This document shows positions 1 to 3,195 of a stretch of DNA of 64,000 nt, in pieces. The stretch covers positions 1 through 64,000 of the forward strand of contig NZ_WAJS01000009.1 in NCBI RefSeq assembly GCF_008831045.1. The letters run 5' to 3'. This DNA comes from Adlercreutzia muris (lineage in GTDB: Bacteria; Actinomycetota; Coriobacteriia; Coriobacteriales; Eggerthellaceae). The position numbers and the translations under genes are program-made. Each line of letters opens with the position of its first letter. Position 1 is the first letter of the stretch. The notes under the pieces are model-generated. The model saw nothing but the letters and a program-made list of their open reading frames with translations. It had not been told where the DNA came from and made no database searches.

Positions 1-2986
1 GATGGAGGGAGGGGGCAGGGCGGGGTCGAACCCGTCGGGCGTCTCGAGCTTCGTGGTCGGGTTCGGGTCGATGGGATCGATGGCCACCTCGACCTTGGGC
101 GCCGCATCGGGGTCCTCGGCGGGGTCGATGCTCTCGAGGAAGTTCGCGGGGGCGCCGCTTGCCTGCTGCCCCTCGTCGGGCGGCAGGAACTTGAGCGACA
201 CCTCGTGGCGGCCCTCGGCGCCCACGCTGGGCACCAGGTGGTCGGTCTCCGAGGGCTTGAAGGTGTAGAAGAACTGGGTATAATGGCCCGCCCCGTCGTC
301 GCCGGCGCGCACGGCGTTCTGCGGGAAGGCGGGCTTGCCGTCCTCGCCGAGGATGACGTTGCCCTTCTCGTCCTTCTTGTCCTCGAACCTCAGTTCGATG
401 GGGCCTCCCACCGGCTCGCCGTCCACGTAGAGTTGCACGCGGCCCTCGGGGGCGGCGCAGGTGGGCTTGGTGGGCTCGCTGCCGTCCTGCCCGTCGACGG
501 TCTTGGCGCGCTCGATGACCGCGCTCACCTTGAGCGACTGGTCGGAGGGATGGGGGTTCCCGCCCGGCTTCTGGCCGGCGTCCGTCTCGTCGACCCACTC
601 AGCCGCCAGGTCGCGTACCTGCGAGGCGATGGGCATGACCCTGCCCCACATGACGGCACGGTGCCCCCAGTAGCTCTTGGCGAACTCGGCGATCTCCGCG
701 TCCGAGCTGCTCTCGTCGGCGTACTGCTTCGATACGAGCGTGATTTTCAGGGCGCCGACGTTGACGGGCATGGTCGTACTGCTCGTTTCGGGGCCCGTGG
801 GCGCGGCGGTCTCGCCGTTATCGCCCGGAATGCGATCATGGGGCTGGTAGCGGTACTCGATGAGCTGCTTGCCGCTGCTGTCGGTCACCTTGTCGAGCAC
901 CTTGTTGTCGGGCGCCGGCGTCGTGATGGGCTTTGAGGCCAGATCGTAGGCGGGCAGCGGCGTGCCGTCGTAGTACTTGGTCAGCGAGGAGAGGTAGTCC
1001 TTGTCGTCTATCTCGAAGTCGAGGTAGCGCTTGAGCAGATCGCCCGCTTGCCCCGGCTCGCGGAAGAGGGGCAGCACCTGGCGGACGTTGCCGTCGTCGT
1101 CCGCGTAGGTCAGTTTGACGGAAATCTGCTTTTCCATGGCCTCCTCGGGCAGCCACAGGTACAACTTGCCGTTAGTGAAGGTGGCAGGAGAGCCGTAGGG
1201 CCAATCCATGCCGCCGACCTGCAGATTCCAATCGATAATGGGATTGTTTCCCGAGCTGTTGGTTTTCTCAAGTTCGGCCATAAGATCGATGGCGACCATC
1301 TTCACGATGGGGTTGCTCGTCGAAGCGGGATCGTAGGGGTAGGTTCCGTAAGCGGAATCATTGCTCATGGCGCCGTTGATAAGGGCCTGGTACTGCTCGT
1401 TGGCGACAACGCCGTTTTCATGGGTGACCGTTCCGATGCGAACAGAGCCGCCGATAACGACGACATTTCCCTGATTGGCGCCGATGGCTTTAGGGTCGCC
1501 GCCTTCGGAATGCGGAGCCGAGGTGTCGGGAAGTACCGTTCCGCCCGCGATGACAATCTCATGTCCCTTGTTGTTCGACACGCACCCCTGCCCAAGCGCG
1601 TTGCCGTGAGCAGCTGCCTTGGGAATGACGACGCCTCCATTTACGTAGATGTCGCCCGCCTGGGTACGTGCGGGGTCGTTGGCGCCGCTTCCGTCGGGTG
1701 TCGAGGGGATGCCGCAGTCGAGGGCGTCGGCGAACAGATAGCTATCTGTGTCGGGGTAGTGGGATGAGTACGCCCATGCGCCGCCGCCGATGCCGGCTCC
1801 GTGGAATGACGCCTTAGCCTCCACACGTCCGCCATTGAATTCCATATAGGTTCCGCAGCTTCCGTGCCCGCCGCCGATGCCGGCGCCCATTCCGTTTGCG
1901 AGGCTGCCGTCTATTGCCGTGACGTTCAGGTTGCCGCCGTTGAACACCATGCGGCCGGCGTTCTCATATGCGCCACCGCCGATGCCCGCAGCGAGAATGC
2001 CGCCTGTGGCGGTTAGCGATCCGGGGTCGTCGCTCTCAAGAAGGTTGAGCCGACTGCCCCCTTGAGTGGTGCCCGCGGTGTAAGTTTTGCCGTCAGCTGC
2101 CTTGAAGGTGACGCCATCGGGAATGCGGCCCGGGTATTTTGCCGGGTTCATGGCAATGGCGTTGCCTGACACATCGATATTCGGAATGTCGTCGTCGATG
2201 GTGAGGGAGGTGCCCTCGCCGCAGCGAATGGCGGGCGCGCGGCGGTTGGCTGTTGCCATCAGGGTATTGCTCGACCCCTTCGCGAGCGTGAGCCAGAGCG
2301 AGGTCTGCGGCGAGACCGTGTTGCCGTCGGCATCGCGATTGCGTTCGATGGTCACGGGAATGGGGGAGTTAATGTTAACGTTGTCGAAGGAGATGCGGGC
2401 CTGGGTGCCCGCAGCAATCCATACCGTTGCATTGGCTGCAACGGCAGGGTCGTCATTGCTGATGGTTAGGGCAGCATCACCGCAGATGACAAGCTCATTG
2501 AGCGTGTCGGTAAGCACTGCCGCGCCTGAGCGGGCAGGTCGGTCGTAGGCAGTAGAAATAAAATAGAAGTCCTTGCCGGGAGTGCCGCCTGTAACCGTCA
2601 GGCCGTATTGGCTTCGGTCGCTGCTACGTGCCGCATTAGATGGTTCCGCGACTTCATCTGCGGCAGCTTTCGTCGGATCGGCCGCGTTGGCAGATGCGGT
2701 AACGAGCGGCAAGAGGGCTTGCGAGAGAAGCGTGGTGAGCGTGATACCGTCTGCTGGTGGCTCAGCTTCGCCAGAAGAGGGATCTTCCGACGCGGATGGA
2801 TTGTCCTCAGCCGGGGTGGTCTCGCCGGTTGCGGCAGCGTCAGCTACCGGCTCAGAAAACTCGATGGGGGGGGGTCTCCGTGCCCTGGCCCTCGGGCTCG
2901 GCGAGGGCCGCCGCGGGAGCCATCCCGCAGGCGAGCGCGGCCGCCAGGCCGAGGCGCAGAAGCGACCCCCGTCGCTTCTCTCTCAT
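1..2986 (-). CDS. Large secreted surface protein, 5' part only, interrupted by a C9 homopolymer frameshift
   Basis: The start ATG at 2986 has a good ribosome site (AAGGAGA) and encodes a Sec signal peptide (basic MREKRRG, hydrophobic core, cleavage near ALA-EP at about residue 31). As written, translation stops at 2852-2854, only 44 codons in, because of nine consecutive C on the coding strand (plus-strand G run 2866-2874). With eight C the frame is open to the window edge, about 995 residues, with no further stop in the stretches I translated. The body is acidic near the N-terminus, then has Gly-rich repeats of the type GAGIGGG alternating with FNGG or VNGG strands (around 1400-2100), as in right-handed beta-helix or carbohydrate-binding surface proteins, then Asp- and Pro-rich segments. 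The C-terminus and any wall anchor lie outside the window. Function is unknown. An extracellular adhesin or glycan-binding role is inference. It may be phase-variable, a recent pseudogene, or a base-calling error. Confidence 0.75.
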
Positions 2987-3067: not shown

Positions 3068-3096
3068 AATATACCCCTTCGCTCTGCTTTTCGCAA
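3068..3096 (-). promoter_or_regulatory. Sigma70-type promoter of the surface-protein gene
   Basis: Reading the minus strand, TTGCGA (plus 3091-3096) and TATATT (plus 3068-3073) are separated by 17 bases. The predicted start of transcription lies about 75 bases upstream of the ATG at 2986. This is a near-consensus promoter, so the gene is probably transcribed even when the reading frame is broken. Confidence 0.6.
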
Positions 3097-3155: not shown

Positions 3156-3195
3156 CAGAGGGCCGCTCGCAACCTTTGCGCGAGCGGCCCCTCTG
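3156..3195 (-). terminator. Hairpin downstream of panF
   Basis: A stem built on GGCCGCTCGC and GCGAGCGGCC with flanking CAGAG/CTCTG pairing lies between the panF stop and the promoter of the next minus-strand gene. There is no strong T run after it, so it may be a weak or factor-assisted terminator. Confidence 0.5.

Follow-up and report, generated by a model that had tools for sequence, protein, structure and literature searches.

In Bifidobacterium breve UCC2003, the sortase-dependent pilus genes bbr_0113 and bbr_1889 are split by a G11/G10 tract; the reference genome is in the OFF state, one base fewer results in pili, and enrichment of the ON length is observed in mice (PMC9187656). Slippage has been measured in this bacterium, and the promoter is active in the OFF state (PMC9187656). 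Frame switching of a like kind is described for the contingency loci of Neisseria, Campylobacter, Helicobacter, and Gardnerella, where poly-G/C runs of at least eight bases are located near the starts of surface genes (PMC5084427, PMC11287997). Adlercreutzia and other Coriobacteriia are common in the gut, but a literature search revealed no account of phase variation by homopolymers in this class.

Here, a window of 64,000 nucleotides from Adlercreutzia muris (positions 1 to 64,000 of contig NZ_WAJS01000009.1) was analysed, near one edge of which a run of nine cytosines separates a signal peptide from a long protein body. The G-tract of the B. breve sortase-dependent pili is the closest proven case. 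Both bacteria are gut actinomycetes, in both a short ORF for the signal peptide and a long ORF for a sortase substrate are parted by a G/C run, and in both the reference genome is OFF and one base fewer gives the ON frame. The B. breve genome contains two such clusters, whose operons include a dedicated sortase, whereas Adlercreutzia has ten scattered tract-bearing paralogs per genome, with C or G tracts and a common unit of leader, tract, and double stop, and no dedicated sortase beside most copies. The loci of Neisseria, Campylobacter, Helicobacter, and Gardnerella are likewise numerous in each genome, while the host lineage and the protein family differ, and our searches of the literature on them revealed no description of a conserved rare-codon stop pair directly behind the run. 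We consider it very probable, at about 0.8, that the C9 tract is a real on/off frame switch operating by slippage; in the sequenced DNA, the copy in the window is OFF.

Organisation of the Locus

The gene and all its elements described below are read from the minus strand. A consensus scan identified one sigma-70 type promoter, TTGCGA-17-TATATT, at positions 3068–3096 (0.0 expected in shuffled sequences), followed by the Shine-Dalgarno motif AAGGAG, within AGAGAAGGAGA, at 2994–2999, which is kept before the ATG across the family. The ATG at 2986 opens a leader ORF with a signal peptide, which covers the 112 nt up to the tract (2875–2986) and in which 57 of 112 columns are invariant among 19 copies. 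The tract itself, C9 on this strand and G9 on the plus strand, occupies positions 2866–2874 and is directly followed by ATCGAGTTTTCTGA. As written, the frame encodes 44 residues and is closed 11 nt past the tract by a TGA at 2852–2854; the frame that C10 would give is closed 19 nt past the tract by a TAG at 2844–2846. The remaining frame, beginning with ATC GAG TTT TCT GAG CCG GTA GCT GAC, stays open for 955 codons from 2865 down to base 1. Since 112 nt lie ahead of the tract, the ON lengths of this gene are C8 and C11. Base 1 of the window is the end of contig C9 in a 94-contig assembly of 2.77 Mb, and the gene is therefore truncated by the contig edge.

The earlier note on this DNA had described a minus-strand promoter, a ribosome site, and a signal peptide that run into nine C and a stop codon, all of which are seen in the sequence. 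It had also stated that one C fewer opens at least 950 codons, in agreement with the 955 codons found up to the contig end. The end that it gave for the feature, 2855, holds for the last sense codon, while the stop codon itself lies at 2852–2854.

A terminator-like hairpin of 13 pairs is present at 3159–3191, with an upstream transporter gene on one side and the promoter of the window gene on the other. Its location is consistent with an independent transcription unit for the window gene.

Position of the Tract and Related Copies in the Same Genome

The presence of a C9 tract was rejected as evidence in its own right, since such runs are rarer than shuffled sequences predict: the window contains one C9 run, while 4.26 are expected after dinucleotide shuffling. 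In this DNA of 67% GC, such a run is thus unremarkable, and the whole genome contains 41 runs of nine or more bases. An unbroken C9 or C10 was found at the identical base in all 17 readable copies of the leader, which were retrieved by the leader sequence and not by the tract; an 18th copy is masked by N. Judged from these aligned copies, it is the position of the tract, and not the tract itself, that exceeds chance. One family copy, on an A. caecimuris contig (L111, 2932500–2942000), has N over the leader–tract region, and its tract length is unreadable.

A search with the read-through protein revealed at least 12 family genes in the genome of A. muris (G000) and many more in its congeners. 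Ten of the 12, scattered over the genome, have a slippage-prone run of C or G downstream of the signal peptide. Six of these have a common leader and the junction GAGA-C(n)-ATCGAGTTTTCTGA, referred to below as junction A; the tract is C10 in the copies on contigs C8 and C62 and C9 in those on contigs C9, C39, C48, and C58, and all six are OFF. Three copies with another leader, on contigs C9 (at 85967), C11, and C26, have a C9 tract and are ON. The copy on contig C1 has a G10 tract 281 nt after the start and is OFF. Two tandem copies on contig C7 lack a long tract and are both ON; in the first, an in-frame C6 stands at position +112, where the tract copies have their run.

Distribution and Tract Length in Related Genomes

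A homolog of the body is present in 14 of 138 genomes of the bacterial family. Other genes with a tract after the signal peptide, which the earlier note had suggested looking for, proved to be numerous: 43 tract-bearing genes from four genera have C9, C10, G9, or G10 shortly behind the signal peptide. Across the genomes, junction A occurs with C9 in 18 copies and with C10 in four, and all 22 are OFF, counting G002:C2, in which the leader start is cut off and the remaining part is out of frame; none of the 22 has C8 or C11, the ON lengths. Both G002:C2 and G012:C134 are cut on the 5' side. With other leaders, C9, C10, or G10 corresponds to the ON state in most copies, and the state of the G9 copy G097:C95, which has a second start 9 nt ahead of the tract, is uncertain. 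The mode of the length is thus nine both where nine bases give the ON state and where they give the OFF state.

Among 84,980 species genomes, the junction pattern matched only Adlercreutzia/Enterorhabdus, formerly separate genera, and an uncultured bacterium, the named matches being A. mucosicola DSM 19490, A. caecimuris B7, and Enterorhabdus; no match was found in viral contigs. Two of the matches, L127 (1822–1844) and L136 (1539–1561), have lost the leader ATG, have a C6 tract, and run into stops soon after it. These are dead remnants, showing what decay of the leader–tract module looks like.

Comparison of tract lengths at the same position in related genomes, also proposed earlier, revealed differences between species, not within one strain, against stable flanks. 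The gene on contig C1 of A. muris (G10, OFF) and its ortholog G003:C9 (G9, ON) are identical at 446 of 460 nt (97%), and besides the tract base they differ in length only by one in-frame indel of 9 nt. The C10 copy on contig C62 corresponds to C9 in G003:C68, with gap-free flanks 98–99% identical over 360 nt, and the C10 copy on contig C8 to C9 in G003:C67, with gap-free flanks 96–98% identical. Another pair, G012:C290 (C9, ON) and G097:C14 (C10, OFF), shows 83–88% identity. The closest relative of the window gene, G005:C5 of A. mucosicola, likewise has C9 and is OFF; at the window locus, the length is the same. A tract-free, in-frame ortholog (L106, G003:C23) was observed for the tract-bearing ON gene on contig C26 (L061), which means that gain or loss of tracts occurs even between sister species.

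These comparisons bear on the possibility of an assembly or base-calling error, which the earlier note had regarded as the main rival explanation. Homopolymers are error-prone, and the contig ends within the window gene. However, many separate copies, in isolate genomes as well as in metagenome assemblies of separate projects, read C9 or C10 at this very position, and random error would not leave the junction-A copies always off while several others in the same genome are in frame. Such an error is thus very unlikely, and we reject it.

Maintenance of OFF Copies and Stop Codons behind the Tract

A plain pseudogene formed by a one-base insertion would explain why the frame of the window gene is broken as written, with the C9 frame ending after 44 residues. 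However, the 955 codons contain no further decay, the dN/dS between the window gene and its A. mucosicola relative is 0.43, and the identical break is found at the identical base in 22 copies from several species. True remnants such as L127 and L136, with the ATG of the leader lost, a C6 tract, and stops, look different. For the bodies of orthologs of OFF copies in general, dN/dS was 0.21–0.58, a range that overlaps the values of 0.31 and 0.24 for two tract-free ortholog pairs, while for the G10/G9 gene it was 0.08; the longest open bodies in the family reach about 1,700 codons. Of the 21 junction-A copies with available upstream sequence, 20 are preceded by the promoter TTGCRN-17-TATATT. The dN/dS values of OFF copies and the conserved promoter indicate that the broken copies are kept under selection. 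An unvarying tract with downstream decay, named earlier as the mark of a pseudogene, was not what we found, and this explanation is rejected as having next to no probability.

Both wrong frames are closed shortly behind the tract. In the first set of 30 genes, the two stops lie 7–24 nt past the tract in all cases. In the full table, 42 of the 43 genes have both within 24 nt, and only G097:C95 departs from this, with 50 nt. At codon positions in the bodies of the first-set genes, both stops occur within 24 nt in 2.0% of cases, with a median distance of 227 nt. The TGA of junction A is formed by the rare serine codon TCT before GA, and the TAG by the rare valine codon GTA before G; each codon makes up 4.7% of its synonyms, and each stop is present in 21 of 22 copies. 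Rare codons comprise half of the first four post-tract codons, compared with 13% in the bodies. Since the subfamilies build the stops from different codons, shared descent of junction A does not fully explain the stop pair. The pair is in keeping with selection for complete silencing of both OFF frames, and such selection would act only if both frames occurred. A rare-codon out-of-frame stop pair behind a tract could serve to flag phase-variable genes when a single genome is all there is to go by.

Between the same two genomes, dS ranges from 0.026 to 0.54 across the family loci (e.g., G000:C8 vs. G003:C67), which suggests recombination or gene conversion among the copies. One could hypothesise that the OFF copies form a silent reservoir, retained mainly to supply sequence to an expressed locus by recombination, and that the tract is incidental, as the several-fold difference in dS between loci, the far greater likeness of leader and junction than of bodies, and the OFF state of all junction-A copies would also agree with this. 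It is nevertheless highly improbable, because the OFF copies retain the promoter and the ribosome site, the rare-codon stops in both wrong frames make sense only if the copies are read through the tract, and no single expressed acceptor locus with a junction-A leader was found.

Predicted Surface Proteins

Complete siblings of the window protein are about 1,400–2,000 residues long and end with LAQTGD, a membrane segment, and a basic tail (RRR); this sortase signal was read in the siblings, the window copy being cut by the contig end before it. The signal peptide and the LPXTG-like end in complete siblings, together with the sortase genes present in the genome, correspond to the class of sortase-anchored proteins. 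A sortase gene is located about 2.6 kb upstream of the copy on contig C8, with other genes in between, and none was seen in an operon. The complete siblings contain DUF11 and the isopeptide-forming fimbrial domain RrgB_K2N_iso_D2, the latter in three of them, while searches of the window fragment alone against Pfam and NCBIfam revealed no family.

The structure of a 631-residue part of the window protein was predicted by AlphaFold2 with a mean pLDDT of 89.1, using 40 homologs. Foldseek found no match for this model in the PDB at E ≤ 0.001; VIA-align applied to the Foldseek list gave beta-helix proteins, among which Cthe_2159 (PDB 4peu) was the closest (Z 21.5, rmsd 2.5, 227 aligned residues), followed by a more distant likeness to many others, including the surface adhesin PfbA (Z 9.7). 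According to the model, the N-terminal domain of the body is a right-handed parallel beta-helix, comprising model residues about 23–465 and encoded at 1294–2622. Cthe_2159 has its fold in common with this N-terminal domain, but it is a single-domain protein, and polysaccharide binding by the window domain does not follow from the common fold. Their anatomy suggests that the proteins of the family are probably adhesins.

Proposed Switching Mechanism

The locus and its relatives display the attributes of a contingency locus: a slippable repeat, a one-unit change that toggles the gene, and, between orthologs of other copies, length variation with stable flanks. The inference drawn earlier that the tract toggles a large exported protein is the best-supported reading, considering the tract differences between orthologs, the dN/dS values, and the other tract genes. 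Each tract copy combines a signal peptide, preceded by a promoter or ribosome site, with a C/G run of 9–10 bases, two wrong-frame stops, and an intact long body. DNA polymerase would slip at replication, changing the run by one base, and such changes would be unhindered by MutS-type repair. An ON length (C8 or C11 in the window gene) would fuse the signal peptide and the body into an exported, sortase-anchored protein, while other lengths would yield only a secreted peptide of about 44–47 residues. With the copies switching independently, a clonal population would be a mix of cells with differing sets of surface proteins.

No match to MutS1 was found at E ≤ 0.001 in any of the 13 Coriobacteriales genomes, that of A. 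muris and 12 relatives, with the control positive in 11 of 14 genomes; for A. muris, absence means no match to one model. Indels in runs are therefore probably poorly repaired.

The OFF state of all 22 junction-A copies is unlikely under free switching among three frames. However, an assembly shows only the length that prevails among the cells, and the copies, which share ancestry and perhaps gene conversion, are not independent. Free slippage would also be expected to produce a wider range of lengths than nine and ten. Cells with an ON length may be at a disadvantage in culture and in the guts sampled, or else the length may settle at nine in equilibrium, with ON as a rare state. The exclusive occurrence of OFF lengths, never C8 or C11, may point to default silence or to low-level transcriptional slippage. 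A default-silent repertoire, in which selection would hold C9/C10 and a rare, host-dependent C8 would expose one giant adhesin, or else a C9 fixed as a recoding signal for RNA polymerase slippage, is conceivable but doubtful; if the repertoire is silent by default, the rare-codon stop pair would have evolved to complete the silence.

RNA polymerase slippage or ribosomal frameshifting on C9 would imply that the DNA remains C9 and that some of the transcripts or translation events yield the full protein, with low-level expression of all copies in all cells. This would be in line with 18 of the 22 junction-A copies, from several species, having exactly C9 and being out of frame in the same sense, and with CCC-C being a known context prone to +1 shifts. 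However, C10 copies would need another shift, and no single recoding direction serves the family, since C9, C10, or G10 is in frame in other subfamilies. In addition, the stops in both wrong frames limit the products of either shift, and the like layout in B. breve works by DNA replication slippage (PMC9187656), all of which makes recoding improbable.

If switching by replication slippage indeed takes place, ten independently switching giant surface proteins would produce very many surface types from one strain, with a bearing on colonisation, immune recognition, and phage attack, and most of the surface diversity would be hidden by the consensus genome. Taken with the B. breve case, this suggests that switching of sortase-anchored proteins by poly-G/C runs is a recurrent feature of gut actinobacteria.

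Other Genes with Long Runs

In two other exported genes of the A. muris genome, a G9 run is located inside the signal peptide, at C19:53697–53705 (L056, 3698–3706) and C38:17271–17279 (L065, 4272–4280); one of them is ON and one OFF. The former gene has a weak C-type lectin match, below the Pfam cut-off, and a YDG-like domain, and the latter is similar by eye. They probably represent a second phase-variable family. Paired C9 runs 39–48 nt apart were observed at C2:110954–111001 and C13:73272–73328, just ahead of a start codon with a ribosome site, where they could affect the promoter or translation spacing.
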